The translations under genes were made by a program, and so were the position numbers. Shown here piece by piece: positions 12,401-57,000 of a DNA stretch of 64,000 nucleotides. The notes below the pieces were generated by a model, which had not been told where the DNA came from, ran no database searches, and saw nothing but the letters and a program-made list of their open reading frames with translations. Source of the DNA: Echinarachnius parma (Eukaryota; Echinodermata; Echinoidea; Clypeasteroida; Echinarachniidae); assembly GCA_037951105.1 (NCBI GenBank), contig JBAMJV010004342.1, positions 1 through 64,000 on the forward strand. Direction: 5' to 3'. The stretch's first letter is position 1. Every line of letters begins with the position of its first letter.

Positions 12401-15400
12401 CATGTGACAATCATGTGACGACCACCTGACGTCCGAGCAAAGCAGCAACCGCTGGCAGTCTGTGTGTGACCTTTGAACTCTCGGACAGGATCTTTCAGGC
12501 TCCGAACGTCCCATAACTGGAGGAGACACACAAATTAATCATTTAAAATTTAGATGTTTGTATTTGCAGCAACAAAAAAAAGGTATGTCATGGACAGCCC
12601 CAATTCAAAGAGGAATCAAATTTAGTGGAATATATTTACATAAACTTAAATATTATTTCTTAAAATCTGATCAAAGATTTGGACGAAACATTTCTACACA
12701 TTTTTGTGGTACACATGCTTATGATTTTTCCTTGACCAGGGGCGTAGCCAGGAATTCTCAAAGGCGAGGGCTCCAACCTAAAAAGACTTAAGCGTGAGCC
12801 CCTTTTGGTGGGGTCCAGAGCCCTTGGAAGCTTTTGTTATCATGCCTATACAATTAAAATGTTTTTGTTTTGAAATGTTTATGGAAATTAATTGTTATAA
12901 TTGTTAAGATTTACATAATTGTTGTTATTGCCTTCTCTTTCCATTTGCCAATGGATGACACATTTCTTTATAACAATTGTATGTTTGAAGACCAAATAAA
13001 AAATATTTATATCTCTCTATATCTATATCTATCTATATCGATCTTATAGTGTTCTAGTGTTGTAGTGCAAATCTAAAGCCAGAATAAAGAATTAAATGAA
13101 TGCTTTCTCACCGATGCTTCACAGCCCTGTCCGCTGAAGCCGTTACTACACGAGATGCAGTAGTTTCCATCTGCACTGACATCGCAACACGTCTGAATGT
13201 AACTCTTCTTGTTCGACTCGGCTATCTCTTCCATGGTCCTTGTATCCCATAATCTAGAAAGAAATTAAAACAAAATTGTAACCTTCATTTCTTGACCCTT
13301 CTTGTGAGATAATCTACATAAAATGTTTTAAAAAGTGCCAATAAATGAGAAAAAAACTTGTAAGCAATTTTGGATTCTTATGAAACTTTTTTGGAACACA
13401 AGATGCAGTAATTTTCATCACAACACAACTGAAATGTAACTCTTCTTTTTATTTTAATAGATAACTTTACCTTTAAGTTTGTCTTTGTATTTGGCATTGT
13501 CACAACATGTGTAACTAAGTTGTGTTGTGTGACGACATGATCTCAGAAATATATCAATCTGAAAGATAAATCCATGGAATCTAGCATATATCTATCATGT
13601 GCACAATCTCAATTCCCCTAAGAGCATTCAGACCTCCTTACCTTAGAGACTTGTCCTCACTGGCTTGTAACACAGTCTCGGTATTGGGAATTGTCACCAT
13701 GTGCGTCACTAAGTTGCGTGATGATGTCACGTCACGTATGCAGTTGCCCGTCTCCGTGTCCCACAGTCTGAGCGAGTTGTCCCGACCACCTGTGCACAGA
13801 CGCCTTGATACATCCACTGTGTGAAGCAGGAATTTAAAATACAGTCAAACCTGTGTTAGTTTTATTTCCCAAAGCTTATATTTTCAAATTTGTAAGTGTT
13901 TTTTAATGGGAATTTGTGGGGATATAAGGTGATTGGTGTTTGACAAAAGAAAAAAACATACAATAGTTTACTATTTTCACAAGTTTCAAAACATCCCCAA
14001 AGTGATTGAGGAAGTTGTAACAACCACTTTTAAGTAAATAAAGCATCCACCCAGACCCAGTAATATGTATTTCTAACCGCCCACGTTTCATGACAGACTT
14101 GGAAATTATGAAATAAAATAGTTCTTAACACTAAACAGGTTAGCTGAACCCACCTGGTGCAAGTCCCATCGCTACAAGGCTATGGCCAACAAACGTCAGT
14201 CTGGCTTCCGCAGAAGAGTCCTCTCTTGTCCACATCTTCGCAGTCTTGTCCCGTGACGTGCTGAACATGCAGTCCATCGATGACGAGTAAGCAACCTTTG
14301 AAGAAATTTTACAAATACGAAGGCAATTAGACAAAAACAAATCAGATGTTTTAAGTATTGATTTAAAAAAATATATCAGCCATCACATGTCCATATTTTT
14401 AAAGTCTTATCTTGTGACATATATACGCTCAATGCACATTTTTTAGACCACAAGAAGGTTAAAAATTAATCAAAGGCACGTACATTACAAATCTTTGCAC
14501 AAACATACATAATCATGCATCTTTTAAATAATACACAAAGACATCTTAACCCGTTCCATTTGAGTTTTTGAAATCCCCATAGAGTTTGTACACAACCCAC
14601 CCGGTTCCCGTAGTCAAGGGGTTAACCAACAGATATTCTTGCACACTCTCATCGAGAAATATAATTTGTTTAATTATCAACTTCCAACTTGTTTATCATA
14701 CTTTTCAGGGCCTTACAAATCAACTTGCCTGGGACAATGTTTAAAGCAACAAGATTATGTGGATAAAATGCAAGAAAATAATTGACAGCTCAACTTTTTA
14801 CTCAACATTTACTAAATAAATGTTCATTACAGATGTCTTTTGCATGCTCTGAATGACAGTGACAATTGAATGCTTGTTTTCTCAATATGTACCAAATTAT
14901 TAACAAGCTATTTTTCTTGCAAGCTTGCCTGACTGGGCAAGTCAGAAAACAACTTAAATCCTCGGCAAGTAGTCTGGATCCAAATTGAAAATTTTGGGTT
15001 TATAAATATGCAAGAAAATAATTGACAGTAACATTTTACTCACTAGATTTCTCTTGAGTGCTATGAATAACAGTGACAAATTGACAAATTGAATGCTAGT
15101 TTTTATGTAACAAAATTCGGGCAAGTCAGAAAATTAAAGCTTAATGGCCCGGTCAGATATCAACGGATATCGGAAACGTATGCCCAACGAATAGACAATT
15201 TGCGAAATTAAATTATCCGGTGATGAAAGTCGTCTCCATTGCTTCATGTACAGAACATAGAACAACGTACATCACCGGACAAGGAACGAACAAGAAACGT
15301 ATAGAATGGATGGAAAATTTAGCTCTCCGTTTGACATCCGTTTGCGCAATCCGTTGATATGTGACCGGGCTATTAGAGGCGTTGGACCTAACTATTATGG

Positions 15401-17190
15401 AAAGCAATTTGTAGCCTTGGAATAAAATATACTCAAAAGCAAACAAATAAAAGCATTTGAAACTTTCAACAAAATGTTATATAAATAATTTCAAGGATCT
15501 TTGATTTCAACAAATATAACTTTTTAAATCAAAATGAATGCCTTTTTAAAAGAATTGTTTTATTTTTTCTCAAAAAACTAACAGCTTTCAATTTTTGTTT
15601 AGTCCAACAAAGAGTTGAGTTAACTTAGGATCTTTGTGAAACATTCCCAGCATTTACCTTGGTTACATCTCGACTGTGTCCAGTCCATCTCTGCAGTACT
15701 CTGCCTTCTCCCCAATGATATGACACGATGGTCTGTACATGTGTCAAATGAAAAGAAACAATTAATTTCAGTATCAAGCTTCAAAGTAAATTCTAACCTG
15801 CTCTGCCTTAGAGTGAAACAAAAAAAGAAAGATTGCAAATACCTAACGTTTAAATATTTAACTTTTGGTGGTCTCACAATGAAATCTCACATATTGAAAT
15901 GCAATTCATATCTTTCATAGAATATTTTGACACATACTGTTAGCACTGTATGGGAAGAAGTTTGGTGTTTCACCAGCCAGTGATAAATAAAGAAAACAAC
16001 ATGATATATCGCTCAGATACGCTCACTCCTAATTCTATCATATCAATCAAAATTATACTTTAAGTTAAACCTGTCTTAGCGGCCACCTGTCTATAGATAG
16101 CAGCCAACCTGCCTATAAGGGCCGCAAGAAGAGTTCCCCCTGCAGAGAAAAACAGTGTTGACATGCATACCTGTCTATTGAGGTCACAGGTATAATTCAG
16201 TGGCCACTTTTCTTGTTTACCTCAAGGTGGATACTGTACACAAGTTTGACTGTAATATTATAATTAAATTAAGAAAATACTGCTGAAAACTGCTCATCTA
16301 CTAAATATCGCCAATGTGGTAAAATGAGAGTCGTATGCAGCCTAGCTTTCAATCCTAGCAGGATCTTCGTCAGGGCAAATGACAGTAACTACATAAAGAC
16401 ATCAGAATATGCTGTAATATTATAACTCACTTTGTCAGCCCCTGCAGACAAAAAACTCTCACTCCCTAGAGAGGCAACAGAGTGGACAGCATCTGTGTGA
16501 ACTGGATTGTAGCGTTTCACTCTGTCAAACTCAGCTTGTTGAGTTGTTGGTCTTTCAACTGGCATCCTAATATACAGGGGGAAACATCAATACATGTTCA
16601 TTTCAATCTTGTATTACTACAATCTAAACAAGACATCCTTTTATCGTGAGAAAGAAATCAAATCACAAGATTAATGGATTCCCCAAATGAAACTTATGAC
16701 TATCTCAAAAAATAAGAAAATTTCAAATAGCATTTGCATTGTAAAAAAGAGAATTACAGTTGAAATCCTTTAACCCTGACTCACATATTGTATATTAAGC
16801 TTAATCTTCATTAAGTTAAAACATTATTCTCCAAGCACAAAATTACAAAGTTCTGCAGATCTAGACAAAAGAACCATTAGAAATTATATCTGATCATCAT
16901 CCAACATGCTCATGAATGAATATTTTGGTCTTGAAGCACCTTCCTTTGCACTGCTGAGTTAAATCAAAATCAAAATCAAATCATGTAATGCTTAGATTAT
17001 TCAAATAAAACAGTTTATGAGTGATCTTATATCTACTTCCGATTGAATTATTAAAAGTGTGCATGATTTTAAAGACGAAAAAAAGATGAAAAAAAAAGTA
17101 ATCAAATTGTTTACGAATCTACTCTGGTCATCATCTAACTTACTCATATCTTGATGCGCTATTCTTCGCCTTGCTGTGCCTCAGCCCCAT
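9461..17190 (-). CDS. WDR31: WD repeat-containing protein 31 homologue, 9 coding exons, complete
   Basis: Exons on the - strand, in transcript order: 17190-17144, 16566-16431, 15732-15658, 14295-14154, 13816-13642, 13253-13112, 12516-12357, 11856-11787, 9557-9461. All junctions are GT-AG, phases agree throughout, and the sum is 1044 nt (347 aa plus stop); human WDR31 is similar in length (about 367 aa). The N-terminus MGLRHSKAKNS has Gly2 and a basic stretch, as in vertebrate WDR31, consistent with N-myristoylation. WD40 blades include CMFSTSRDKTAKMW, LCTGGRDNSLRLWD, LQASEDKSLRLWD, CISCSNGFSGQGCEASLWD and VTCSHDQTVTLWDQDSG; the SCSNGF-G-GCEA-LWD segment is a WDR31 signature. The family is linked to cilia in animals. 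A probable 5' acceptor gives exon 2 as 17212-17144. A TSS may lie near 19.9-20.0 kb. Assignment is strong. Confidence 0.95.
9901..10343. mobile_element. 443-bp MITE with ATATGTGACCTTACACCAC ends
   Basis: Left end CATATGTGACCTTACACCAC then AAAACGACCA; right end TGGTCGTTTTGTGGTGTAAG then GTCACATATG. The inverted ends match over about 30 bp. No ORF inside. Lies in the last WDR31 intron. Confidence 0.8.
10725..10812 (+). mobile_element. SINE 3' tail (GGGGTAATAATAGC...GCTATATAAAT, ATT run)
   Basis: ACCGGGGTAATAATAGCATT, AAAGTGCTTAGAG and GGTGCTATATAAATCAAG followed by a TTATTATTATT end form the 3' end of a SINE type seen widely in marine invertebrates. Similar parts are at 30600-30745 and 52670-52700. 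Confidence 0.55.
10921..11277. mobile_element. MITE family B copy (TTAAAGGGATCTAGTAAC ends)
   Basis: Begins TTAAAGGGATCTATAGTAAC and ends GTTACTAGATCCATTTAA. Six copies are in the window: here, 27845-28448, 34350-34684, 37446-37832, 47391-47707 and 61626-61978. They share internal blocks TACCTTGTTGTATT, CATGGGACAGGTTT and TTACTCGGCCATA. Confidence 0.85.
11274..11353. mobile_element. 80-bp TTAA-ended mini-element, abutting the previous MITE
   Basis: Contains GAACCGGGTGGGTTGTGTAC, then GAGTCTATGGAGATTTCAGA, and closes AAGGGGTTAA. Related copies: about 1120-1203, 14546-14625, about 58087-58165 and 62381-62460. It starts in the TTAA that ends the family B copy. Confidence 0.6.
13112..13816 (-). 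other. WDR31 exon 5-exon 6 block with degenerate echoes between them
   Basis: Between functional exon 6 (13112-13253) and exon 5 (13642-13816) are two decayed copies: an exon 6 echo at about 13390-13443 (shares GATGCAGTA, then CAACAC and GAATGTAACTCTTCTT in the same order as 13150-13215) and an exon 5 echo at about 13466-13545 (GGCATTGTCACAACATGTG versus GGAATTGTCACCATGTGCG, then ACTAAGTTG). The echoes have deletions and no intact frame. Confidence 0.75.
14379..14440 (-). pseudogene. Possible degenerate echo of WDR31 exon 4
   Basis: CATGTCCATATTTTTAAAGT then CTTATCTTGTGACATATA resembles the exon 4 stretch TTGTCCACATCTTCGCAGTC then TTGTCCCGTGACGTGCTG. Identity is moderate and there is no frame. 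It lies about 85 bp from exon 4. Confidence 0.4.
14546..14625. mobile_element. 80-bp TTAA-ended mini-element
   Basis: TTAACCCGTTCC at the left and AAGGGGTTAA at the right, with the family core ACACAACCCACCCGGTTCCC. It is inverted relative to the copy at 11274-11353. Confidence 0.65.
15143..15376. mobile_element. 234-bp MITE with TAATGGCCCGGTCAGATAT ends
   Basis: Left end ATGGCCCGGTCAGATATCAA then CGGAT; right end ATCCGTTGATATGTGACCGG then GC. Inverted and well conserved; no ORF. It directly precedes the truncated family C copy at about 15380-15649. Confidence 0.65.
16062..16258. mobile_element. MITE with CAAACCTGTCTATA ends
   Basis: AAACCTGTCTTAGCGGCCAC near the left and the inverted AAGTTTGACTGTA at the right. 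The family (ACAGTCAAACCTG...CTATAAAGACCACC) recurs at 40133-40308, 49753-49875, about 54030-54085 and 62640-62814. Confidence 0.6.
16885..16962 (-). pseudogene. Possible degenerate echo of WDR31 coding exon 1
   Basis: ATCATCATCCAACATGCTCA here aligns with GTCATCATCTAACTTACTCA at 17126-17145, the intron/exon border of coding exon 1. Then CTTCCTTTGCACTGCTGAG follows CTTCGCCTTGCTGTGCCTCAG. The donor GT is changed and the ATG is lost. Confidence 0.4.
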
Positions 17191-17339
17191 TGTAAAGCAT
17201 GTAGTACAAGAGCTGTGAGGAGGTGAATCTGACATCAAGCCTTCACTTCACGGGAGGTGTCCAAATTCAATATACCTACATCATATTTGAAGGAATATGA
17301 ATACAACATCAATAATTTGGTATGAAATTGTTGGTTAAA

Positions 17340-17400
17340 CCAATGCTCGAAATTAGCATAGGCCCGATGGCCCGGGGCCACTAAAAATTGCCGTCGGGCC

Positions 17401-17431
<31 letters not shown>

Positions 17432-18470: not shown

Positions 18471-18475
18471 TTAAA

Positions 18476-19210: not shown

Positions 19211-19213
19211 ATA

Positions 19214-20972: not shown

Positions 20973-20975
20973 TAC

Positions 20976-24900: not shown

Positions 24901-27900
24901 CTCAGTATTAATATTTACTTAAATGGATAAGGAACTAACTGGTCCGGATTCACAAAGGAGGTTTGTACAAACCATGGTTTAAACCATGGTCTACATCTAT
25001 GGAGTGCCATTTGTAAACTGATGGAGAAAGAACATGTAAACTCCTTACTTGTTAACAATGTTGATGGTACACATTTACTTGATGCACCAAAACAAAAAAT
25101 GCTCTCAGATGGTGAAACTTGCTGGTTAGCAAGCACTATCAGTCATATCATTAGACGTTTTACTTGTCTACGAGCAGCACTCCATAGATGTACATGTAGA
25201 CCATGGTTTAAACCATGGTTTGTACAAACCTAGCTCCTTTGTTAATCCGGGCCATATGTTTGATAAAGGAAACTACAAAGGAAAATAAAAGAGTGAATGT
25301 CAACGGAGAAAAGAACAGGACAGGAGAATGGCACATGAGAAAGAGAAGTGGAGAATTATTATCTCGTCATTATCTCATCTATGTCAACTTAAAATCCAAT
25401 TATGATTGTGTTCATAATTGCAGCTTCAAAACCGTTTGTGAAGTTCCTGCTGAGCGCTGGAGTGAGAAGGAACAGTCTAAGCAAAAATGGCTTCTCACCT
25501 CTCCACTTGGCTTGCTTTATTGTAAGTATTTTTCCTTTTCCTTAAAATAATAGAACAAGGTTGCGGCGACGTCGCCGCGACTTCTGCCTGTCAACTAGAT
25601 GATAAAGACCTCGGTCACGTGGTCTCTAAAGTGGGTCAAGCACCGTCAAGCAAAGTCGCGGAGACGTCGCCGTAACATCTCCTCTCAGTCGCCTTGGTCT
25701 CCAGTAGGTTTCGGAGACGTCGACGAGACGTCGCTGGAGACTGGAGAAAAAATCAGACACGTTTGATTTCCCTGGCACAATGGGCGTAGATCTGTCATTG
25801 ATACCTATTCAACAAGGGGGAAGATCTATTCATTCATTCCCCCTGATGAATATGTATTACGTAAGTATCTACGCCCATGTTCCCCGCGACTCCCCGGCGA
25901 CCCGGCTAGTCTCCAGGAGACGTCGCGGCGACGTCGCGGAGACTCAGTCGCCAACAGGTCACCAATTAGTCTCCAGGCCGGTGAGATAGTACCTTTAAAT
26001 ATATATATCATCATCATCATCATCATCATCACTTCTTTATTGACATATAAAAAGTTCTTTGAAATATTCATTCAATCTTTCTAAGATTGAGATTTGTCTT
26101 CAATTATCTCCAAGCTTTCTCCTCCCCATGTGTGAGGTTTGTGTGTATTTTTTTCTAGGATCTAAAAGTTGGGCCCTTCTGTAATTCTTTACCCCTTTTC
26201 TGTATACATTTTTACTCTGTTACAAATGTATACATCTTCTTTTCTTCTTCTTTTCAGGATGATGTTGATATGGTGAAAGATCTGTTGCAGGGTGAGGTGG
26301 ATCCTAACATTGTTGGCTACAGCTCAACCACACCCATGCACATTGCCAGTTTGGGAGGGAACGAAGAGGTGAGAGCTTTACCAAAAGGATTTAAAATTCC
26401 CTTACAACATTTTCATGTCAACTTGAAATAATTTGGCCAAGGACTACTTGGGGATAGGGAAGAGAGCGGGATCATACTATTGTGAAATAATATTTGCAGA
26501 CAAAGTTTGATCCGAACATTGTTGGCTACAGCTCGACCACATCCATGCACATTGCCAGTTTGGGAGGGAACGAAGAGGTGAGAGCTTTAACAAAAGGATT
26601 TAAAATTCCCTTACATTTTCATGTCAACTTGAAATAATTTGGCTTTTTCAAACATTGTCAGGACTGCTTGGGGATAGGGAGAGAGGGGGATCATAATATT
26701 ATGAAATAATATTTGCAGACTATTAAGTTTGATCCTAAACATTGTTGGGTTTAACTCAACCACACCCATGCACATCAATCCCCAGTTTGGGAGGTAACAA
26801 AGGTGAAAGATTCAATCTGGAGATCGTATCTTTGTTTTATTCTTCACAGATATTTGAATATATTACGACGTTAACTTCAATTGAGTGGGCTTTTTGAAAG
26901 GTTATAATAGAACTGGTTGGGGTAAAAGGGGGACAGGGATGGAGGGGATAATGATATTGTGATAAACTTGTTGGAGGCTTAGGTGGTTCCTAACATCATT
27001 GGCTATAGCTCAACCACACCTATGCACATTGCCAGTTTGGGTGGGAATGAAGAGGTAAGGATATCATACATTTTCTATGTCGATCTATATGTAGGTGTAT
27101 ATTTATTACAGCGTGAAAGTAATAACTTGTTGCTATTTATTAAATGGCTGTACAGAATACTGTACAGTAGTACATTAATTAAAATGTATACATTAAATGT
27201 TAATTAATAACCAATTACTATACCGGTGCTGTAGCTCTTATTAGAACTACAAGCTCAAGAAAGAATACCAACAGTCCTTTTTAGGACTATCCTTGAAATA
27301 ATACCAACAGTTCTTCTCAGGACTCACCAATCCTCTCCTCAGACATGGTGCAACTGCAAATCACACATATCAATTCTTATTTATTGACTGTTTAATCATT
27401 TTTGGAGAAAATTATTTGTAAATTTGTTGTTTTTTGTTGTTGTTGCTTTGATAGATTGTGGAACAGCTGATCAAGGCCGGGGCTGACATCCATGCCAAGG
27501 ATACAGTCAAGTTCACACCGCTTCACATAGCCTGTTACTTTGGTCATGAAAAGGTAGATTCTTTGTTTGATTTGATTTTTCTTCATCTACTAGTCTGTTA
27601 TTCTTTCTATTTTATTTTATTTGGCAACAAGAAACTCTTAGTCTTGTATTGGTCACCAACGAATTGAAGATCTACAACTGATACACACAAGTCGATGGTA
27701 AGCTCAGGTGCCAATTATGGCCACCGGACATTTCAATTGGCCACAAGATCAAAACTCTTATATTGGCCACTAATCTACAGCACACAAGTCTATGGTAGGA
27801 GACTACACATTGTTGTGTCATTTTGGCTACCTGAAAGAAAAGCCTAAAGGGATCTAGTAACTTTGATGACATGTGAACAATCTGATGAAGGGTTGATAAA

Positions 27901-32617: not shown

Positions 32618-32665
<48 letters not shown>

Positions 32666-32666
32666 G

Positions 32667-33695: not shown

Positions 33696-33738
<43 letters not shown>

Positions 33739-39700: not shown

Positions 39701-42700
39701 TACTCTCTGATTGACTTTGGATTTTTCCACCCACTTCGAAACAGAATTTGAGATGGATGGCCCCTGAAATCTTCGCTCAGAACACCAAATACAGTATCAA
39801 AGCCGACGTCTTCAGCTACGCCCTGTCCCTTTGGGAACTGCTTTCAGGAGAGCTCCCGTTCGCCCACCTCAAGCCGGCCGCAGCCGCGGCTGAGATGGCA
39901 TACCGTTGCACCCGTCCTCCCATCGCCATCACCATCCCGAAGTCCATCGTCAATGTGCTGCAGATAATGTGGAGTCCAATCCCAGAAGTAAGCAGCTAGA
40001 AGCTTTAGAGTTTGAAAGATATGTTTTTTAGTGTCAATTTATGTCTGTGATTGTGAGCTTGTATTATATTCTCAGCAATTCATAGCACAAAATATTAGCA
40101 GAAAATGTAGTTGTATATATTTCTACGTACATGTACAGTGAAACCTGCGCTGGTGGCCACCTGTCTATAAAGACATGCTGCTTAAATAAAGACTGTTATC
40201 TTGACTCTCCATATACAGTGCATGTAAACAAAACTGTCTATAAAGGCCACCTGATTCACCTTTTCTGACTCCCATGGGATGTTCTTGGAGACATGTTTGA
40301 CTGCATATTAATTGTTAGTTTTTATGATAATTCTGCTGTTCTTTATTTTTTATATTTTTGAGTAGATTTCCAACCCTTTTCATCCTAAATTTTAAAATTC
40401 ATTTTGGGTTATGTTACACAAGCTTCCCATAGAGTAATGTGGGAATATTATATTTTCATGTATATTTCTTGGAGAGACCAACGTTTGGTCAGATTCTGCC
40501 AATTCTTTAACGATTGTCATCAAGCAATTCTCTGTCTGATATGCTGACCTGCTGGTTACTTGTTTTACAATAATATCAATAATAATATAACAGTAATAAT
40601 TGTATGTTTTTTCCATGTCTTTCCTTTTTTTTCTCAAGGAGAGGCCAACGTTTGCTCAGCTTCTGTCGATGCTCGAGGATCTGCCTGGTTTGCTGATCAA
40701 TTAAAGATCAAATTAAAGATCAATTGTGTGCTTTAATTACATTTTTTTTTTGTCCAGGAAAGGCCAACGTTTGCTGAGCTTCTGCCGATGCTAGAGGATT
40801 GTCGTCAGGAGATCCTGGCCGTAAGCAAATCACTGTCTGGTGTGCTGACATGCTGGTTACTTGGTTTCAAATTAAACAATGATATGAATAATAATATAAG
40901 TTTAAAATGGTAATAATGGTATGTTTTTCCATGTCTTTTCTTCTTTTTTTTTTCCAGGAGAGGCCAACGTTTGCTCAGCTTCTGCCGATGCTAGAGGATT
41001 GTCGTCAGGAGATCCTGGCCGTAAGCAAATCACTGTCTGGTGTGCTGAGCATGCTGGATGCAGAATGGGTAACGTGTGGCATGCCGCCCTCTCTTGTTTC
41101 ATTCCAACTAACTTTAACATAAGAGTATCGAGAGTCAATAAATTCTGATCCTTGCAGAATCTTCTTCAGAGGCAAAATTGGGAAAATAAAAATATTGGGA
41201 GAAACGCAATTCAGCACTCTTTACAATTAAAATCCAGTGGATAAATAGTAGTCTTGGCTATCTAGTGTCAGTATTCGGCTATGATTTCAGTGTGTAATCT
41301 GGTGCAAAGTAATTGTGTTTGATAAGAAACTTTTATGATCAAACCCAACTGCCTATTGATTTTAGGGAGATGTGATTTTTGAAAGTGGCCAAATAATCGC
41401 ATTCAATGCAAGTTATACTTTAAATTATACATATATATTTTTAATGCAATGACGTTTTTTTTAACACAAAGTTTTGTTATAATGGTCAGATTTGCATTTA
41501 CAGGCATCTAGGCATAACATGATATAAACTTGTAGATGGCATATTCCTGTCTTTCAATAATAGTAAGAATTTTTCTTTTTAATCTTCTTGCCATCATTTA
41601 CATGATTGTTTCTTTACATTTATTTGGATTTTGATGTCAAGTTTGTAATTTTATGCATGAAGACTTTTGCATTATGATGTGTTTTTGAACTGCAGTTTAA
41701 TATTAACATATTTAGTTTGAGATACTGTAATTTCCTTCAAAGAATGCACACAACAGTCTTGGTTTTAAAAAAAAAATGTTTGTTTACGATAATCTTTTAA
41801 CATATTGATTGAGAGGATTTTACTTGAATCAAATATATATTTCAGTGTTATGTGAGAGTTTGGACTGATAAAAGCATGAAGAATTTGATGTGTTTTGATG
41901 TGATTTTGGTCTGTGTGAAATATACTAATGTAGTTATGTTGTGTTATCGTGAATTGTACAGAATTGAGAGTATAATGATGATGATGATGGTGATTACATT
42001 GATGATGATGTCAAAGAGTAAGAAGATCATGGTTAGTATCTCAACTCATAACAACACTCACTACTCGTGTCTACCTTACAGGCCTCGCCCATAGATGCCA
42101 ATGACGATTGTTGCGAACTGGGCTACAGCGGACTGGAGCCCTCGCCTGGTGACCTAGAGCCAGGCGAACTCCCAGCAGGCAATGTGATGGCACTGCGGAC
42201 CCAGTGGGAAATGTGTGCAAAGTCACTCAGGTACATTTTTAATGAAAATCAGTCTGACAGAAGTTGGCCAGAGACATTATGTTTTTTTGGCACGGGGGCA
42301 GTCTGTCCATTTGTACATTTCTCATTGTCATGATATCTCAATGATTCTTTGACAGATCAGCGTCAAATTTGGTACCTGTTTGCAGTCCGATTGGTTTAGT
42401 TTAGGTTATACACCTCTATTTTGATGTTTAATAAATCATAACAATATGAATACTAGTATCATCAGACAATAATCAGTAAATGAGTATAATGTTGGCATAT
42501 AAGGCGGCGCCTATCTCCGATTCATTAACCCTAGGCCACACGTCTGCTAAATGTAGCAAAAGCTACAGAAGGGGGCCAGTCCTTGGGTAACTCTTGTGAT
42601 TAACTTTCCCTTCTCCATTCTTTAAATACTGAGCGCCTGGCAAGAAGGCAGAAGCTACCATTTTTAAAAGTCTTTGGTATGACCCAGTCTGGGTTCGAAC

Positions 42701-43862
42701 CCGGGACCTCCCGTGCATCAGGTGGACACTCTAACCGCTAAGCCACCATTCTCTGTATAATGTAAAGTCTAACAATATTTCTCTTTTCTGTATCCTTTTA
42801 CAGTGCTGAACCCATTGGTAATGGCATTTTCCCAACTACAGACAAAAATGGTGAGTAAATAATTGGTTTGTCAAACATAGGGGAAGCTGAGCAGAAAAAT
42901 ATGAAATGAATGAAAAATGAGGAAATAACATTGTGTAGTTTCCCAGGGAATCAAAACCCAATACCTCTGGATTGATAGACCAGTGCTCTAACCATTGAGC
43001 CACAAGGCACTATCGATGGTAATACTTCCCAGGTTAATTATTTTGCTCATTATTCATATAAAATACATTGTACATGTATAGATAGGATAAATAAATATTC
43101 AAATACTATTAAATGTGTGATAAATTCTTGATTTGAAAAGATACTTCATTGTCATACATGTAGCTCTACCAGAAAACCTACTTGTGGATAATGATTGTTA
43201 TTGTGAACAAGTTTATTTGATTTTTCTTGAACATCCCAAAATGTATGCCTCTGATGCTTTATTTTGCTCTATTAAAATATCGATACGAGTTTATTTCATC
43301 AACCAACCATTAGGGCTTCTTCACTTTAACGCTAGACCGAGATATTTGCAATATATGAACTACAATTGTTGCTATAACCTTTCAGCCTAGAATGCTAGGA
43401 TGAATACATGTTGATAGGTGCTGGTGAAAATTTAAGCAGTTTAGATAAAAAATAAATATATGTTTTTGTCTATTTAAAATGTGTTTCGTTCTCTCTTCCT
43501 TCTCTTTAATAGGTTATGTATCGTGTCGGAACCACTAATCACCCCAAGAGCCTTCCATTCATCCTGACTAACCTCCACAAGCATACAGATAGAGGGCGCT
43601 TTGAATTTTATCCTATTTCTTTTCTTTTCATTCTTTACCTTCTTTACCACATGTTTCAAGGTTATGTCCCAGATCGACTAACACCCTAACAGCCAGCCAT
43701 TCAATCTAGACTACCACCATACAAGCAGAAAGATAGAGGGCGCTTTAAATTTACCTTTTTTTGTCTATTGTTCTTCCTTTCTCACATGACGCAGGTTATG
43801 TATCCGATCCATTAAGCACCCTCCGAGCCAACCATTCACCAAGACAACCACCACAAGAGTAG
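21928..43862 (+). CDS. TNNI3K: TNNI3K homologue: ankyrin-repeat / tyrosine-kinase-like kinase, 24 coding exons, complete
   Basis: Exons: 21928-21967, 24075-24186, 24597-24700, 25424-25521, 26258-26368, 27455-27553, 28470-28614, 28845-28989, 29336-29440, 30362-30456, 31353-31502, 32335-32421, 32917-32973, 33379-33471, 34722-34779, 35474-35600, 36122-36189, 37288-37392, 38721-38826, 39745-39987, 40958-41068, 42082-42230, 42804-42850, 43795-43862. All are GT-AG with matching phase; sum 2523 nt, 840 aa (human TNNI3K 835). The start MGAYKSRP matches vertebrate MGNYKSRP. After a coiled N-terminus come about ten ankyrin repeats (about residues 70-430; e.g. [29 protein letters not shown]). The kinase has GSGSFG (about 479-484), VAIK Lys499, HRDLN Asp597, DFGES Asp615, and NLRWMAPE (636-643), so catalysis should be intact. 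The end GYVSDP is conserved. In vertebrates it is cardiac and binds troponin I; the role here is unknown. Confidence 0.97.
22370..23925. mobile_element. CpG-rich composite insertion in TNNI3K intron 1
   Basis: A near-repeat GGCAAACGGCTTTCCTGGGT (22374) / GGCAAGCCAGCTTTCCTGGG (23879) brackets the block. Inside, CCTAGCACGTAGAACT (22418) and AGTTCTACGTGCCTAG (about 23136-23151) are inverted and delimit about 730 bp; a second pair, CACATCGGCACACT near 23383 and GTGTGCCGAT near 23787, delimits another. The first block has CCAAT-type (CCATTGGTTG, GCCAATCAG), GGGCGG and ATGCAAAT motifs. Small frames at 22448-22701 look non-coding. Confidence 0.5.
24340..24545. repeat. CCT/CTT-rich microsatellite before TNNI3K exon 3
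   Basis: (CCT)n about 24414-24449 plus CTT runs. The segment CTCCATCTCC(A/G)CTCCACTACTCTA occurs twice (near 24361 and 24446), so a block of about 85 bp was tandemly duplicated. It forms a long pyrimidine tract 50-250 bp upstream of the acceptor. Confidence 0.8.
24942..25252. mobile_element. MITE family G copy (GGATTCACAAAGGAGGTTTGTA ends)
   Basis: Left GGATTCACAAAGGAGGTTTG then TACAAACCATGG; right CCATGGTTTGTACAAACC then a diverged end. Second copy at 38942-39168 with better preserved ends (GGCCCGTATTCACAAAGG / CCTTTGTGAATACGGGCC). Both lie in TNNI3K introns. Confidence 0.8.
25555..25990. repeat. GACGTCGC-rich palindromic cluster in TNNI3K intron 4
   Basis: GCGACGTCGC, GGAGACGTCGC and close variants occur at least eight times (for example near 25565, 25650, 25715, 25728, 25917 and 25930). 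The middle is a separate foldback with TGGGCGTAGAT (about 25780) and ATCTACGCCCA (about 25868). CpG-rich in AT-rich DNA, with CTCC AG/GGAGACT flanks in inverted order, as in a decayed TIR element. Confidence 0.65.
26010..26031. repeat. (ATC)n microsatellite
   Basis: A short run of ATC triplets next to an ATATAT stretch in TNNI3K intron 4. Confidence 0.8.
26500..27054 (+). pseudogene. Three extra copies of TNNI3K ankyrin exon 5
   Basis: Functional exon 5 is 26258-26368. Copy 2 (26500-26577) keeps an acceptor (TATTTGCAG), 26 open codons in the same phase 0 and the donor GAAGAG|GTGAGA, with one P-to-S change. Copy 3 (26719-26804) has stops and frameshifts. Copy 4 (about 26949-27054) is full length but has TAG in frame; its donor GTAAGG is intact. 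The intron flank after copies 1 and 2 is also shared (GAGCTTTA(C/A)CAAAAGG), so units of about 220-240 bp were duplicated. Confidence 0.85.
27845..28448. mobile_element. MITE family B copy, split by a nested MITE
   Basis: Starts TAAAGGGATCTAGTAAC and ends GTTACTACATGTAGATCCC. The family F element at 27923-28140 is inserted within it. The right end lies 21 bp before the acceptor of TNNI3K exon 7. Confidence 0.8.
27923..28140. mobile_element. 218-bp MITE family F, TA-flanked (Tc1/mariner-like), copy 1
   Basis: Left CCGTAGAACACCATCGTCAA then GCACCCCCAAGCACC; the right end is its reverse complement, ending GGTGTTCTACGG. TA lies directly outside on both sides. Copy 2 is at 63008-63224 and very similar. 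TA duplication is typical of the IS630-Tc1-mariner group. Confidence 0.85.
29828..30344. mobile_element. MITE family D copy, fullest form
   Basis: TTAAAGGGATAGTACAGTTT at left, inverted AACTGAACTATACCCCTTTAA at the right (shown here in parts). It ends 17 bp before the acceptor-side exon start of TNNI3K exon 10. Confidence 0.75.
30480..30745 (+). mobile_element. SINE-like element in TNNI3K intron 10
   Basis: CTACCCAGGAGTATAAATGG, GCCATGGTCGGGTGTTAATT, TGGTATGCTCCCTTGGGAGT and GACCATGGGTAATAATAGC match the body and tail of the SINE whose tail is at 10725-10812. A short related piece is at 28662-28760. Confidence 0.55.
31522..31680. mobile_element. 159-bp hairpin MITE after TNNI3K exon 11
   Basis: Left GTAGCCCATTTCATAAAACA then CTTGCAATTG; right CAATTGCAAGTGTTTTATGA then AATGAGCTAC. 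Almost the whole length is arm. Begins 20 bp after the exon 11 donor. Confidence 0.8.
32063..32310. mobile_element. 248-bp MITE just upstream of TNNI3K exon 12
   Basis: GAGCTTATTTCCAAAAGGGG then CTATATCCAC at left; GTGGATATAGCCCCTTTTGG then AATTAAGCTC at right. The right tip is 24 bp from the exon start at 32335. Confidence 0.8.
32563..32712. repeat. (ATC)n microsatellite, about 150 bp
   Basis: ATC triplets with few interruptions in TNNI3K intron 12. It gives rise to poly-Met, poly-Ile and similar frames that are not genes. Confidence 0.95.
33585..34256. mobile_element. 672-bp hAT-type foldback element with 8-bp target duplication
   Basis: Ends TAGTGCTGTAAC and GTTACAGCACTA are inverted. 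ATATAGTA occurs directly outside both (33577-33584 and 34257-34264), the 8-bp duplication typical of hAT transposons. Long arms pair over most of the length (CATATTTTGGGAATATAAAT, ACGCCGATTTTGAGCTTAGT). CGATC-rich subterminal blocks and an A run of about 35 nt (near 33699-33734) are also present. No transposase, so non-autonomous. Lies in TNNI3K intron 14. Confidence 0.92.
34350..34684. mobile_element. MITE family B copy before TNNI3K exon 15
   Basis: TAAAGGGATCTAGTAACTTT at left and GTTACTAGATCCGTTTAA at right. It ends 37 bp before the exon start. Confidence 0.85.
34871..34899 (+). repeat. Poly-G tract (19 G, plus GGGGG) in TNNI3K intron 15
   Basis: GTGTGGGGGA followed by an unbroken run of 19 G at 34881-34899. 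Able to form G-quadruplex on the sense strand. Confidence 0.85.
36200..36880 (+). repeat. Tandem repeat of about 180-240 bp in TNNI3K intron 17, interrupted by a SINE
   Basis: Blocks CACTTTCTTGCTGTAGCAAT, AAATAGCAAACAAAT, ACAAAATGTATTATTATGTG and GCCAGTTATCTTCAAGTGAT recur three to four times (near 36302, 36500, 36650 and the last block at 36847). The third unit is split by the tRNA-like SINE at about 36706-36826. Confidence 0.85.
36706..36826 (+). mobile_element. tRNA-derived SINE inside the intron 17 repeat
   Basis: GCACCGGTCTAGCAATCCGG is an anticodon-arm-like block and CTCGGGTTCGAATCCCG a T-arm / B box. The following CATTTTTCTTTGCTCAC tail also follows the copy at 57545-57650, so they are one family. 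The 5' tRNA portion is missing here. Confidence 0.7.
37446..37832. mobile_element. MITE family B copy after TNNI3K exon 18
   Basis: TTAAAGGGACTTAGTAACAT at the left and AAAGTTACTAAACCCCTTTAA (21 nt with a mismatch to family) at the right, shown here as its parts AAAGTTACTAAACC and CCTTTAA. Starts 53 bp after the exon 18 donor. Confidence 0.8.
38063..38299 (+). pseudogene. Two extra, truncated copies of TNNI3K DFG exon 19
   Basis: Functional exon 19 is 38721-38826. Copy A (about 38063-38116) is decayed (ATTTGGCCATACAATTATCT for GTTTGGCCATGCAGTTGTCT). Copy B (38240-38299) keeps the acceptor TTTGCAG and 20 intact codons through DFGES, then stops at a MITE boundary at 38300. Copy B lacks the DNMTKQPG part and a donor, so it could not give a normal kinase. 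Confidence 0.85.
38300..38612. mobile_element. MITE family C copy abutting the DFG exon echo
   Basis: Starts GGGGGTGTTTCACAAAGATC and ends GATCTTTGTGAAACACCCCC. No continuation of the exon is seen after its right end, so either the copy ended there or later DNA was lost. Confidence 0.85.
38942..39168. mobile_element. MITE family G copy 2
   Basis: GGCCCGTATTCACAAAGGAG at left and the inverted CTCCTTTGTGAATACGGGCC at right. It is inserted in an older element with repeated (A/C)TTGCCC blocks (about 38850-39370). Confidence 0.85.
40133..40308. mobile_element. MITE with ACAGTGAAACCTG ends (TATAAAGACC family)
   Basis: ACAGTGAAACCTGCGCTGGT at left; inverted ACATGTTTGACTGCA at right; inner CTGTCTATAAAGGCCACCTG. 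See the copy at 62640-62814. Confidence 0.6.
40457..40957 (+). pseudogene. Three extra copies of TNNI3K kinase C-lobe exon 21
   Basis: Functional exon 21 is 40958-41068. Copy 1 (about 40467-40545) is decayed. Copy 2 (about 40639-40682) is cut short. Copy 3 (40758 to about 40856) has the acceptor TGTCCAG and matches the functional exon almost base for base through LSGVL, with E for Q at one site, but loses the SMLDAEW end and its donor. The flanks (TGCTGGTTACTTG..., TCCATGTCTTT) are shared, so whole units of about 200 bp were duplicated. Confidence 0.88.
42493..42754 (-). mobile_element. Complete tRNA-derived SINE with 9-bp target duplication
   Basis: On the - strand it begins near GGTGGCTTAGCGGTTAGAGT (A box) and has GAGGTCCCGGGTTCGAACCC (B box), then a body to about 42493. 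GTATAATGT flanks it at 42484-42492 and 42755-42763. It lies in the 3' third of the TNNI3K gene (intron 22). Confidence 0.85.
42945..43015 (-). mobile_element. tRNA-derived SINE head
   Basis: Reverse strand GTGGCTCAATGGTTAGAGCA (A box) and GGTATTGGGTTTTGATTCCC (altered B box). Lacks a proper acceptor stem. Confidence 0.6.
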
Positions 43863-44308
43863 AAAATCAGAGAAACTGCACATCTAGCAAGTTACAAAAA
43901 CAATAAATAGAGGAGAAAGGAAAGTTTGAACCAGAGAACTTTGGAGTACTATTCAGGGCCGGTTGACATAAAACTCCACAGGTTTTTAGCTTATGTAAGA
44001 TCTGCTAAGCACCCTCCGAGCCAACCGTTCACCAAGACCACCACCACACGAGTGAAAATCAGAGAGGCTACACCTCTACCAAGTATGTAAAACAAAAACA
44101 ATAAATGGGGAGTAAAGGAAAGTTGACTGTTACAGAATTTGCACAAGCAACAATTTAACAATTCAGGGCTGGTATTCACAAAACCCCACATGTTTTAGGT
44201 TATGTGTTGGATCTGCTAAGCCCTCTAAGAGCCAGTCATTCACCGAGACCACCATCACACGAGTACCGAGTCAATAGGAAGCAGAGAGGCTACATTTCTA
44301 ACATTTAG
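43513..44308 (+). pseudogene. Five tandem copies of the TNNI3K terminal exon (one functional)
   Basis: Starts after AG at 43513, 43661, 43795, 43990 and 44199. Copy 3 (43795-43862) gives GYVSDP and is taken as real. Copy 1 ends after about 7 codons; copy 2 after about 9; copy 4 is frameshifted; copy 5 (44199-44308) is open for 36 codons plus stop, keeps GYV then DLLSPLRASHSPR, and has acceptor TGTTTTAG. AATAAA follows copy 3 (43902-43907) and copy 4 (44101-44106 region). Flanking AGAGGGCGCTTT and ATTCAGGGC blocks are also repeated. Confidence 0.85.
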
Positions 44309-47390: not shown

Positions 47391-47707
47391 TTAAAGGACC
47401 AAATCCTCAAAATACAATTGGAATTCTAGCGGTTCCCTCATACCTTGTTGTATTCGTATTAACAATAAAATCACGGGACAGGTTTCAGTTTTTCAAATTT
47501 CCCTTTCGTTAAAAAGGTATTTACGATTGAAGTGTTCAGAGTTTGTGAACATCACTTTGCATTTTTGCTCATTACTCGGCCATATAACGCCCATTTGACT
47601 TGAAATGTTCACATAATACCCTGTGGACATATCAGATAACAACAATATACATTGTATCAACAATTCATCACTTTTTGCATGTTAACAAAGTTACTAGTAC
47701 CCTTTAA
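47391..47707. mobile_element. MITE family B copy, internally shortened
   Basis: Starts TTAAAGGACCAAATCC and ends GTTACTAGTACCCTTTAA. Shares CTTGTTGTATTCGTATTAAC and TTACTCGGCCATATAACG with other copies. Confidence 0.8.
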
Positions 47708-50700: not shown

Positions 50701-51084
50701 CCCGGTTTGAAGGCCATAATCGCCGGGAATCCCTTCTCGTCTCGGATCGGATAACAGCACTACTTTATGGACAGGTTTTTGTCCAACGTTTATGTTCTAA
50801 TAATCAAAATAAATACTGACTAACGACTATTTTGTCAAACGTTGCATCTCTGTCTATTGGGTTTGCATACACATACACAACTCTTTATGAAACACAACTT
50901 ACATGACACATACTGCACTATGATAAGTCTGCACAATCTGGAAGACATAAAATATTATTTCATAGTACAATCGCACACTTGAAAGTTAGAACCTGCTTCT
51001 AAATGAATTAATCGCTCTGCAATGAAGTCTTGAAACCTCCATGCTTTGAAAACTAGGACAGAGAATGGTATTGTGAAGTTTCGA

Positions 51085-54000
51085 TCATTCTGTATGTTTC
51101 GCAATGAAGTCCCGAAACCGGCGTGCATACTTTGCGGAATTTACGGACGAAAATGGAGTCCGGGGCGAGATGCAATACTTCAAAATCGTCTCCATCCTCT
51201 TCTTCAACGTGTACTGCCCCAGGATGTCGATGATCCCCACGAAGTAACGATCGTCCGTGCCATCAATCACGTGACTCGCATTTGCCACGTTCGGCAACAG
51301 GCGCTGGTTGCGCAAGGCGTCTGCTTCATCTATGGTCTCGTCCTCGCCTGATCGGTGCGCAACGAGCCTCATGTCGTTGAGCGATTGCTCCTGTAATGCT
51401 GCCATCTTGAGCGCAACTGGATCATCGTTTTCTCCCCTCGGATTCGTATTGTACTGAATGGTTGATTTATTTGCATTAACATCCTCGTCGTCATCATCAT
51501 CGTTTATGTGCCCTCGGTTTACCATTCCTGGAAGCTGTGTGTTTTCTTTATCTTGTTCTCTTTGTTCGCCAGAGTTTGGACTGTTGGATCCTATTCCTGC
51601 TTGATTGTTTTCAATAAGTGGGTTGTGCCTATCATGATCATCATTGATGTGTTCTTGCTTTATAAATCCCTGATTTTGTTCTCTGATTCGCTGACTGGAG
51701 TTGTTTGAAGCATCTTCAGTTTGAACCTGACCTGGAGGGGGACCGCCATGAGGTACTGACCTAAATGTGAAAGAAGTTCAGAAAGAAACAAAGAAATAGT
51801 CATGTTTCTATAAATATGACCTTGAATTGAATTTGTTTTTATAACAATGAACAGTAAACAATAAACAGAGTATATAATAATACAATACAATTATAGATAT
51901 ATGTCATATGCTCCAGTGACAAATAACTGATTTTTTCCGCAACATTTTCATTTGAGCAAAAGTTTGGGTCAAGATTAAGTATAGGGTTACTTTGTAGGTT
52001 TAGGAAAAGGGTTTGGGTTTTGGTTAGGATTTAGAGTCTTTTTAGATTTACACAAATTTAAAGGGGTAGTACAGTTTTGGTAAGGCTGAACTTTAGTAAC
52101 CAAACCTGGACAGTAACATTATAAACTAATAGTTATAACTTCACCATGCTCGAAAGGTATATAAAATTACAAACGACTAAGTAAAAAGCCCGTTATCATT
52201 CAAAAAGAGCCATTAAAACACAAGAGGGTGCTTTCTAAAAAGGTATTGGTTTCAACCATTTTTCATACAAAATTATGCATGTGATGTTTTATTGAAATAA
52301 CGATTAAATAGAGAGATCATCAACAACTATTTAAAAAACGCTTTTGAACATTTTTGAAAAAGTGCAAGCATTTATTTTTTATTTTTTTAAAAATCATCTA
52401 ATTATTTGGGCTCCAAATAATTATAAGGTCAGATATATTTATTGATATTTCAGCCGTTTCTGGGTCGATTTTGACCAAATAAAGTTTATTCTGCCATTAA
52501 AATTGCATGTTCTTTCAAATTCGACACTCAGTTTTTCATATACCTCACAAAAAAATTGTGATGTGCAGCAAAACTAAACTAAACTACCCCTTTAATTGCG
52601 GAGCAATTTGCACCAGAGCAAATGTCGTGGACCCAGATCGCCCATGTGCAGCTATGATTGCAGATCCGTTGACCGGGGTAATAATAATCGTGTAAAGGGC
52701 TATGATCCCCATGGAAATAGCGCTATTATACAATTAACGAATGGGCTTCTTGTGATAGTCAAATCTATTACCGAGGTGGGCTCAAAATGATTATTACCCG
52801 AAGCGTAGCTGAGGGTAATAGTCATTTTGAGCCCACCGAGGTAATAGATTGCCTATCACAATCAAGCACATTCGTTAGTTGTTTTATATCACTCATCAAT
52901 ATCAGTGATTGTGTTCAGCTTATAGCAAAATAAGTGAAAATCTCTTGAATATTTCATAAAATCGTTATAAATTTTTATATAAAAAATCAATCGACATTAA
53001 TGAAGCCAGTATGAGCAAAACTGAGTGCGCACCAACGCGCTGGCAGTTGCGCACATACGCGATGAATGCGTGCTAGCGCTCCCACGGATGTGCTTATTGG
53101 CTGTCTTGACGTTCTTCTTCCTAGGTGAATAGTTTTTACCAACAAGGGCAATCAAGTGACTAGAACGTGTGCGCCATAGAGTACTGCACAAATTTGATCG
53201 CGTGTGCATTTTTCTTAAACACATGATCTATGGAACGAGCGCGTAACGAACTTTTAGAGTTAATTATTTTACTAACGCCCCGGTCACGTTATTTTGCGAG
53301 TTGTCCAAAACTATCGTTTGTCAAATTCAATGGTAAAACGATCTCATGAGGGATATAAATATCAATAACCGTTATTATTATCATTATGATATTTGTTCAA
53401 ATCATTTCTACTCACTTCACAATTCTCTGTACGATACCAGCAAAGCCATCGTTGGTGCTCATTTCGGTGAAGTGCAGCATTTGACGTCCAACGAGCAGGC
53501 TATAGTCCATGATGTTGAAGCCTTGCAGGAACTTGGAATCGATTTCAATCTGATGCAGGAACCAGTCCTTCTGTGTTGCTGATTAGATGACCAATAAAGA
53601 AATGATAAAAATGATGATAGAAATAATGATTATAATAATGATGCGATAAATAAAATGAATCAAATTCATAATAACAATAATAATCAGAATGTGAAGTGCA
53701 GTGTCGCGTTAAACATTGAAGATTTGCAGAAACTTGGAATCAGTTTCAACCTAACGCAAGAACCAGCCTTTCTTGTTGGCTGTAATTGATGGTGTAATCG
53801 ATGATGATGATGATGATGATGATGGTTGTGATGAAGGTGATGATGATGGGTGATGATGATGACTATGACGATGACGATGAAGATGACGATGTTGATGATG
53901 ATGATGAAGACGATGATGACGATGATGATGATGATGATGATAATGATAACAATGATGATGATGATGATGATATTAGTGGCGGTGGCAGTGGTTTTGGTCT

Positions 54001-57000
54001 TGGCCAGGAATCTCTTCATCTGTTTTATAAAGACCACTTGTTGTGTCTTCCTTAGGAGGTCTTAATAGATAGGTTTGACTGCAGTAGGATAAACAGTACT
54101 AACCCAAACTCAGTTTCTGCTCTCCGAAATTGACGTCTTTCAGGACGGTAACAAATTCGCTGTCCTCCTTCTCTGGTTTGACATAACGGTTAGCGATGCA
54201 TCCCTTTAGATCATACCTCGCGTAGATCCTTCCTTCTGGGTGGAACACACTCTGCATGACCGAGAAGAATTTCTGAAAGAGATATTAATAGATGGTACAT
54301 TTCTTTAGTTTTATGATTTGTAATTTTATTGTTATGAACCCAAGATAATTTTCTACCGTGTTGGCGGACAAGTTGGATTGCTGTTAGCGATGCACCCCTT
54401 CAGATCATACCTCGCATATATCCTTCCTTCTGGGTGGAACACACTCTGCATGACCGAGAAGAATTTCTGAAAGAGATATTAATAGATGGTACATTTCTTT
54501 AGTTTTATCATTTGTAATTTTATTGTTATGAACCCAAGATAATTTTCTACCGTGTTGGCGGACAAGTTGGATTGCGGTTGGCGATGCACCCCTTCAGATC
54601 ATACCTCGCGTAGATCCTTCCTTCTGGGTGGAACACACTCTGCATGACCGAGAAGAATTTCTGCAAGAGAAATATAGAAATAGATGATGTATTTCTTTCA
54701 TTTGGTCATTTGTAATTTGTGACTTGTGAACCCAAGATAATTTTCTACTTTGTTGGACTAGTTGGATTGCTGTTGGCGATGCACCCCTCCAGATGATATC
54801 TCTCATAGATCCTTCCTTCTGGGTGGAACACAACCGAGAAGAATTTCTGAAAGAGAAATATAGAGATAGATGATGGATTTCTTTCATTTGGTCATTTGTA
54901 ATTTGTGACTTGTGAACCCAAGATTATTTGTTGGACGAGTTGGAATGGGGATACCGATGCACACCTTCAGATCATTCCTCGCACAGATCTGATTTAAAAA
55001 AAGAACCCAGAATATGTGGTGCATTTCTTCTTTTTTTTCATTAGTAATGACAGAATTGAATTTTAATCTAAAATATTTGTTAAAATATTAAAATGAAGTA
55101 ATCAGCAGTTTTTGTCACTTCATAAACACAGAGTCCCTTTTTGCTGAGCAGTATGCCATAGTGGAAGTGCATGTTGCCAATTCCATTATACAATGAAATA
55201 AATGTAAATACTTTGTTATTCTTATTAGTTTTCTTGATCTTACATAAGGTGATTCTGTAGTTAGTTTGATTTCCACCATCGTGGTAATCAACTCGGTCAC
55301 ATTCTTATCAGTTTCTGACAGTTTTGTCACTACTGTCAACAATCCCAGCTGTGTTTACTGCCCCCCGAGGCCCAGTGCTATCACAGAGAGAGGGGCAAGT
55401 GATAAGAAAGTGTCAACACTGATAAAAATCTCCTGGATGCAGGCTTGAGAGCGGAAAACTCGCACCGTTTGTCAGGCCCTCAGAAGCGGTTCAGCAAGCA
55501 ATAAAATTACGTCATGACTTACCCCCTTCTTTCCCGGTAGTTTGATGTAGTGTAATCCCAGTATCCGCACAATGAGCGAGTGTGGGTAGTAGGAAAGATG
55601 GCCGACGTATGAAGGTAGGATTCGAAGCAGGAACCTGGCGTCCTTTGCATTCTCGGTCTTCAGGAAATATTGCTTGTCATTACTGCAGAGAAAATGGATT
55701 TATTTATTTTATTTCCAGGAAAAGAATAACAATGACATAAATGTATGATGACAAAAGAAGAAATCCCATCGACTAGTGCCTGAGGATAGCCAAAAGGACT
55801 CTTGAAAGTTCCTGTCAACGGCTCTCCTCACTAGTCGATGTGTTACCAACAATATATTAACACATCGAAGACATACAAAAACATTACAAATATGATGGAG
55901 ACATTTTTAAAGGTAATATCATTCACAGCTTACTCATGAAATTGGCATTCATGTAGGAGCAAATATACAAAATATAGGGATTCAAAAGAGAAACCTAATT
56001 GGCACCCTTTGCATTTTACTGTCTTTAGAAAATATTGCTTGTCATTTCTTCCGAGAAAACATGACAATTTTGTTTCAATAAGGCAAAATCATCCGCTAAC
56101 TTGCTTTCAAAACTGGCAGAGGAGCATGAGGATACAAAAAAGACACTTCAAACAAATTGGCAACATTTATATTCTCCGTCTTCAGAAAATATCACTTGTC
56201 ATTACTGCAGGGAAAATACATCATGATAACTTGCTCATAAAATGAGCATCTAGGAGCATATGATTCAAGAGAGAAACTGTAACAAATTGGCAACCGTTAC
56301 ATATCTCCCTCTTCAGGAATTACTGCTTGTCATTACTGGTGAGAAAGCATAATATAGATATTATATACCATCGATGACAGGTAATTTAATCACTATTTTG
56401 ATCATAAATTGGTATCTCCTCAAGATTTCCCTACTTGTTATATGACATTAAAATAGGAGCTTACTCAGCATTTGCTTTAAATCAACTCGAACACAGAACA
56501 AAATAAGCTAGAATGGTTGCATCGTTGCACTGGACATTATTAGAAAATAACTAATTGACGCAATAGTTACGTACTGATCTCTTACCACAAGAAGAATATC
56601 TGCCCATTCCGTGAGTTGCTCTTGTACTGTAGGTACGGTTCAACCTCAAGGGTCTTGTTGTAGTCCGTTGATTTAATTCCAAGTGAGTTGCGCAGGGCCT
56701 CAAACACTGCAGGGGAATAGCTCCTGAATTCAACATTCTGTAGAAAAAAGGAACAATATACATACATATATCATTATTCTATTCATATACACGTTAGGGT
56801 GGTTATAGTTTCTTTTGATGCATATATTGCAAGCCTTAATTCACACATTCTCATAACTTTTCAAATTTTACTTGCCCGAACAGAAAGTTAAATTGCCAGC
56901 TTACTTCCAGAGGCTAGCAGCCAAAATACAAGGGACTATATAGATCTACAGACAAAGCTTTTATTCAAATACAAGTCATTATTTGAATAAAAGCTTTGTC

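Follow-up and report, generated by a model that had tools for sequence, protein, structure and literature searches.

Tandem half-exon copies with units near 190 bp in and around genes of the echinoid Echinarachnius parma

Tandem exon duplication, in the parts of the literature drawn on here, has been of interest for whole exons that are able to replace each other (PMC9013439; Martinez-Gomez et al. 2022, PMC9741552). Repair-mediated proximal duplications, as described in the cited part of Pace et al. 2009 (PMC2671141), are 50-619 bp long and have microhomology or filler at their breakpoints. The present study concerns local copies of exons, here called echoes, in a 64,000-nucleotide stretch of the genome of the echinoid Echinarachnius parma (GCA_037951105.1, contig JBAMJV010004342.1, positions 1 to 64,000; this whole stretch is referred to as the window) and in further loci of the same genome. 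A preliminary description of the window had reported extra exon copies at ten or so sites in three neighbouring genes, WDR31, TNNI3K and a PIP5K-domain gene, and knew of no named system of this kind. The copies in the three genes were confirmed by self-BLAST and tblastn, at eight sites rather than ten, and both tandem exon duplication and small repair-mediated duplication are already in print. The account favoured here, and considered probable when taken as a whole, is that small tandem duplications leave half-exons as debris and that the exon part of this debris is occasionally refreshed.

Geometry, unit length and extent of the echoes

Echoes in the window were located by self-BLAST, tandem-repeat finding (TRF) and tblastn with the TNNI3K proteins of Strongylocentrotus purpuratus and Diadema and with echinoid WDR31 proteins. 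The sample was extended with twenty 10-kb dynein loci from the same genome (assembly of 1.2 Gb in 14,790 contigs), in which exons were annotated by paralogue agreement and family matches. The main counts cover the window and 17 dynein loci, 150 exons in all, with the overlapping-haplotype loci L022, L025 and L027 excluded; these three are included in the analyses of codon positions, decoupling and dispersed clusters, and L027 also provides an example of an array. Redundant contigs exist in the assembly (C979/C4544, C9139/C9335 and C7299/C7896); they include an overlap that is 99.2-99.96% identical, haplotypes that agree at about 97.6%, and one pair that has diverged further, with pieces at 78-96%. 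The echo search was limited to 1.2 kb, with the nearest partner used and a boundary tolerance of 15 bp. Matches were counted on intact exons only, 21 echo segments being set aside as non-exons, and the end of the L020 exon, as used in the counts, overshoots by about 60 bp. Arrays of 143-151 bp were for the most part excluded as a dispersed repeat family, recognized by nucleotide-level matches between loci; of 103 clusters, 15 were assigned to the dispersed class. The same pipeline found 0 events in a single Markov resampling of 200 kb.

An echo was found for 42 of the 150 exons (28%; bootstrap over loci 21-38%), a rate for dynein genes and the window, which were sampled by choice, and not a genome average. 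The echo alignments of these 42 exons are 71.9-96.8% identical; 34 of the 150 exons have an echo of at least 80% identity and seven have one of at least 90%. Within the window, seven of 36 annotatable coding exons adjoin a local copy (four in TNNI3K and three in the PIP5K-like gene). Copies of at least 80% identity cover 11.3% (7.8-14.5) of 29,706 exon bases, while the duplicated share of exonic nucleotides at the same threshold is about 2% in human, 0.08% in fly and 0.06% in worm according to the cited part of a scan that used a different tool and searched whole genes instead of 1.2 kb (Ivanov and Pervouchine 2022, PMC9013439).

The position of the echoes relative to their exons is highly regular. 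The 42 echoes comprise 23 acceptor halves, 12 donor halves, six inner pieces and one whole exon, and each of the 35 half-exons spans one splice junction. All 23 acceptor halves lie upstream of the intact exon and all 12 donor halves lie downstream of it, so that none of the 35 is on the non-tandem side; this is the expected result, since a tandem unit that crosses one splice junction can place the half-exon only there. The copies are in direct orientation, adjoin the duplicated unit, keep to a fixed side, and in places form contiguous arrays. The young dynein exon array of L027 (contig C979, present also on the overlapping contig C4544) comprises six units, about 171-176 bp in length; each combines the acceptor and the last 45 bp of intron with about 131 bp of exon, and the microhomology CAAGAA is present at both unit ends.

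Offsets were determined for 79 non-dispersed events, of which 32 are at 179-209 bp, 11 at 148-178 bp and eight at 210-240 bp. The mode at 179-209 bp is significant against a smoothed null (window-scan p 0.0002) and is present alike in events with exons (19/42) and without them (13/37), in a tally made before two loci were reassigned. The drop above 210 bp should be real because it is short units, not long ones, that are harder to detect. As to what might set a unit near 190 bp, a nucleosome or Okazaki-fragment ruler would be a guess; sea-urchin nucleosome repeats are somewhat longer, at about 205-240 bp.

Occurrence of local exon echoes genome-wide, beyond the window, is supported by two family searches. 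The dynein AAA_6 family, used as query, gave 13 extra copies of one exon on contig C3447, in three clusters with 172-206-bp spacing. In this region (L018; C3447:76500-86499) there are three separate acceptor-half arrays of one dynein exon, all within introns of one gene, each with four or five units that are 93-97% alike; young units of 183 bp are found at this locus. A kinase family search gave four loci with repeated exon matches and local direct copies were present in all four, with units near 183-214 bp in three loci and of 147 and 298 bp in the other. The preliminary description had proposed a regional or genome-wide habit, units of about 100-250 bp and copy ages from near-identical to decayed, and the genome-wide habit, the unit size and the range of ages are supported: there are echoes in dynein and kinase genes elsewhere, the mode is near 190 bp, and identities extend from about 97% to about 70%.

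Echoes in the genes of the window

TNNI3K is on the + strand at about 21.9-43.9 kb according to protein matches, from which the exon numbers used here were also taken; these numbers are specific to this analysis. The nearest relatives of its conceptual protein are from S. purpuratus (76%) and Diadema antillarum (75%), followed by a brittle star (60%). Exon 5, in the ankyrin region, is intact at 26252-26371 (+, tblastn) and has decayed donor-half echoes downstream (26470..27059, +, self-BLAST and tblastn) starting at 26470, about 26735 and 26944. The first is spaced at about 209 bp, and two of the exon 5 echoes contain in-frame stops. Exon 19, which encodes the kinase catalytic loop (38719-38826, +, tblastn), has an acceptor-half echo that is 92.5% identical at 38233-38299 (+, self-BLAST and tblastn). 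Between the two, at 38297-38612, is an inverted-repeat element resembling a miniature inverted-repeat transposable element (unstranded; self-BLAST on both strands), which truncates the echo and has relatives at 63295-63622, 15381-15650 and 8142-8405. Exon 21 (40955-41074, +, tblastn) has three upstream echoes (40472..40850, +, self-BLAST and tblastn), at 40472-40507, 40636-40680 and 40755-40850; in the nearest the exon part is 98% identical and the similarity of the intron flank is gone. The duplicated units had been described as including flanking intron, and many do, but for exons 19 and 21 the similarity ends at the splice site and intron is not visibly within the unit.

The last coding exon of TNNI3K (43764-43859, +, protein match) is accompanied by a cluster of copies at 43534, 43988 and 44210 (43534..44264, +, self-comparison) with spacing of 143-211 bp, including the only echo among the 42 to span a whole exon. 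Units without a known exon are also duplicated: self-comparison identified non-exonic duplications with an offset of about 198 bp in a TNNI3K intron at 36275-36867 (+).

The PIP5K-domain gene is on the - strand, with matches to Pfam PF01504 from 51.1 to 55.7 kb; a protein search gave two poor matches, and the label PIP5KL1 comes from the preliminary description only. Its most extensive array has an intact exon at the 3' end in the direction of the gene (54105-54299, -, Pfam match) and about four further units of 194 bp (54189..54989, -; TRF, repeat search and sequence inspection), each consisting of the 3' end of the intron, with pyrimidine tract and AG, and the first part of the exon. A second exon (53463-53582, -, Pfam PF01504) has an acceptor-half echo at 53716-53778 (-, self-BLAST) with 81% identity and an offset of 201, and a third (55514-55693, -, Pfam match) has three decayed upstream echoes at 55978, 56158 and 56288 (55978..56350, -, self-comparison). 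WDR31, on the - strand at about 9.5-17.2 kb with a protein 72% identical to that of S. purpuratus, has decayed pieces of two exons within the intron at 13256-13640 (13381..13537, -, protein and DNA match): 60 bp at 75% to exon 13641-13826 and 67 bp at 70% to exon 13109-13255.

Drift, decoupled divergence and competing explanations

In 39 dynein-locus events, with the haplotig loci included, differences between exon and echo number 150, 126 and 247 at codon positions one, two and three, respectively; the result is pooled over events and single echoes may differ. The split is about as expected if the echo is drifting and the exon is changing mainly at silent sites, as it suggests, and purifying selection on the echo copy was not apparent in the pooled codon positions.

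In the favoured account, the genes of this echinoid and their surroundings would be subject to direct tandem duplications with a unit near 190 bp, presumably produced by microhomology or by slippage in replication or repair. A unit straddling one exon-intron boundary would leave the exon whole, splice sites included, and place an additional half-exon in the adjoining intron: for the acceptor, the intron end and the 5' half of the exon twice, followed by the remainder of the exon, and for the donor the mirror image. The half-exon should be invisible to exon definition because one splice site is missing, so it would presumably be ignored in splicing and hence tolerated. It would then drift as neutral debris, sometimes after having been expanded into arrays of four to six units. 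Conservation of the true exon would ensure that the echo retains a homologous sequence at a distance of about 190 bp, and occasional gene conversion or unequal exchange may renew the exon part of the echo as the intron parts diverge. Since 35 of the 42 echoes are half-exons and the pooled copies show no codon-position constraint, the echoes are probably for the most part inert debris and not alternative exons, telling more of DNA mutation than of new splice variants.

Renewal of the exon part bears on the divergence of the two parts of a unit. Concerted evolution by gene conversion or unequal exchange leaves repeats with a higher similarity than would be predicted from their flanks. For ten exons, an identity of 84-98% in the exon part implies a recent copy, yet the 50-bp intron flank of the same unit resembles its counterpart no more than unrelated introns resemble each other (z below 1). 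For TNNI3K exon 21, with 98% identity in the exon part, the flank is at 0.52 (expected 0.97; unrelated introns 0.54), and for exon 19, with 92% in the exon part, it is at 0.58 where 0.88 is expected. For the exon at 5431 in dynein locus L020 the exon part is at 94% and the flank at 0.52 (expected 0.92; unrelated 0.53). The other decoupled exons are L014 6616; L015 290, 2541 and 3528; L016 3292; L018 3; and L023 4640. A permutation of spacer against unit-flank similarity gave a weak effect overall (z 2.1 and 3.5, 39 events). Because the geometry places the intron part once inside the unit, later renewal of the exon part is the simplest reading, and the decoupling suggests a refresh by gene conversion or unequal exchange.

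Several observations weigh against this account. Coupled exons are about equally numerous, TNNI3K exon 5, L009 7854, L014 4903 and L023 3450 being examples, and flanks scored as unrelated show faint similarity by eye in L014 6616, L016 3292 and L023 4640. The expected intron identity ignores insertions and deletions and may exaggerate the decoupling. A search of the E. parma assembly located the region of TNNI3K exon 21 in one place and gave no second copy of it. Microhomology at unit ends was observed in one array only, that of L027, and six of the 42 echoes are inner pieces. The number of young full-unit duplications is too small to separate exon-biased birth from longer survival. The exon share itself is uncertain because 14 of 35 dynein-locus events counted as unique match another dynein locus (protein, E<0.01) and may be exons; one was later counted as such.

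An alternative that we consider unlikely, though it survives best, is that the duplication process itself prefers exons, owing for example to nucleosomes or stalled transcription, and that refreshing is unnecessary. In the 234 kb of gene loci there are 64 non-dispersed events with offsets of 120-260 bp, and 37 of these touch an intact exon where 25.8 would be expected if events were placed at random within these loci (z 3.0, odds ratio 2.0); events of other offsets show no exon excess (4/15 against 5.4 expected). The excess persists among events of at least 85% identity (15 of 25, against 9.9 expected; z 2.1), and the preferred offset of about 190 bp approaches the length of a nucleosome repeat. 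Twelve arbitrarily chosen stretches (58.6 kb), whose gene and exon content is unknown, held 11 events, two of them at these offsets, and the gene loci are denser in such events (p 6e-5), as is the window, with 12 events in its 64 kb (p 0.01). The odds excess is, however, only about 2. In the window alone, seven of 14 non-dispersed events touch exons against 4.2 expected (z 1.7, not significant) and the other seven are without an exon. Coverage at 80% identity or more is 4.1% in non-exon unique DNA (exon ratio 2.8, 1.6-4.4), where both copies of an intronic duplication count and only one of an exon; the per-base ratio is 1.9 (1.1-3.2) at 65% identity and 1.8 (0.6-4.3), not significant, at 90%. 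The higher rate for exons than for introns implied by the preliminary description finds partial support in the sampled loci, and none that is significant in the window alone or at 90% identity and above.

Part of the exon excess must be ascribed to survival, since echoes of conserved exons remain visible longer than intron pairs, perhaps 1.6-fold by our own estimate, and some excess is therefore predicted without any targeting. Refreshing would let exon echoes outlive intronic duplications and would in this way explain much of their excess. A targeted process also leaves unexplained the apparently saturated intron parts found beside well-preserved exon parts in the ten decoupled exons. A bolder form of the account by duplication and refreshing is possible but doubtful: a physical ruler, either nucleosome spacing or Okazaki-fragment length, would fix germline duplications at about 190 bp, and these would be frequent enough to affect about a quarter of exons. 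Exons would then anchor repeated conversion, since selection on the true exon would keep the two copies alignable, giving nearly ageless inert half-exons within genes as their flanks decay.

Capture of exon fragments during repair is improbable. Fragments would have been copied into nearby intron breaks by synthesis-dependent strand annealing, never with an intron part, which would account for the exon-only similarity and unrelated spacers seen in part of the events; proximal copies with microhomology and filler are documented in human (PMC2671141, in the part cited). Capture would be expected to place copies on either side of the exon, yet all 35 half-exons lie where tandem duplication would put them, and Table 2 of that paper lists only eight of 824 donors with partial or full exons, untranslated regions apart. 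The half-exon geometry disfavours fragment capture as the main source.

The echoes had also been proposed as exon-sized raw material for alternative splicing, and functional alternative or mutually exclusive exons, with both copies kept by selection, would be the corresponding explanation. It is very improbable here. The echo of the last TNNI3K exon, which spans its coding exon completely, would fit, but the remaining 41 of 42 do not span theirs, 276 of the 523 differences are at codon positions one and two, and the stops in the TNNI3K exon 5 echoes are in frame. Mutually exclusive exons are rejected as a general reading on the codon positions and the half-exon counts, and the same evidence lends no support to the proposal of raw material for splicing. 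An assembly artefact in which haplotypes were joined in tandem is scarcely credible, for although redundant contigs exist and one pair (L021/L022) differs by about 2.4%, the identity range of the echoes goes beyond that haplotype difference and the six-unit array is the same in C979 and C4544, two contigs that at 99.96% identity may share reads.

Other repeats and comparison with known systems

Several other repeats were noted in the course of this work. The dispersed family with internal tandem arrays of 143-151 bp is found at L010 7009-8187, L015 4568-5903 and L017 1484-2343, in L013 and in others. Long palindromes at 2259-2625, 20075-20583 and 33712-34155 in the window have arms that are 91-94% alike and are probably hairpin-type elements. 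An array of about ten 60-bp units is present at 60892-61492, and one related unit stands alone at 6451-6519, some 54 kb distant. A 291-codon open frame at 58097-58969 (-), serine-rich by eye, has duplications in and beside it (57925-58786) with offsets of 117, 236 and 256 bp.

No report of half-exon echoes in echinoids was found among the papers listed in literature searches, judged by title and start of abstract. If the rate reported here holds genome-wide, small duplication near exons would be several times that in human and more than 100 times that in fly, on a similar but not identical measure, and a true preference for about 190 bp would tie this class of mutation to chromatin or to lagging-strand spacing. 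Exon-like pieces in introns can be dead half-exons, which is a warning for annotation, and the many lone splice sites with exon flanks are a natural test of exon definition.

Like tandem exon duplications and mutually exclusive exons, as treated in the cited parts of that work, the echoes are copies on the same strand of the same gene, beside the original, and include unannotated intronic copies. They differ in being mostly drifting half-exons, in having offsets near 190 bp, and in covering a share of exon bases several times as large as in human, where another method was used. Small size and local placement are shared with repair-mediated proximal duplications, in which, according to the portion cited, copies of exons and splice sites also occur; here the side of the copy is fixed, there is a mode at about 190 bp, and exon involvement is far higher in a gene-rich sample. 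Intron gain by tandem genomic duplication (PMC4974935), as presented in the part consulted, likewise involves small tandem duplications that cross coding sequence and can be masked by splicing, whereas the echoes described here sit in introns. At L023 515-838 (coding orientation) the placement of the copy could have created or moved an intron, making this region a candidate for intron gain and no more than that. With respect to concerted evolution, only the exon part would be homogenized here, anchored by selection on the real exon. The rate of the echoes, their preferred length and their half-exon geometry are surprising, but every step is a variant of the small tandem duplication already known.

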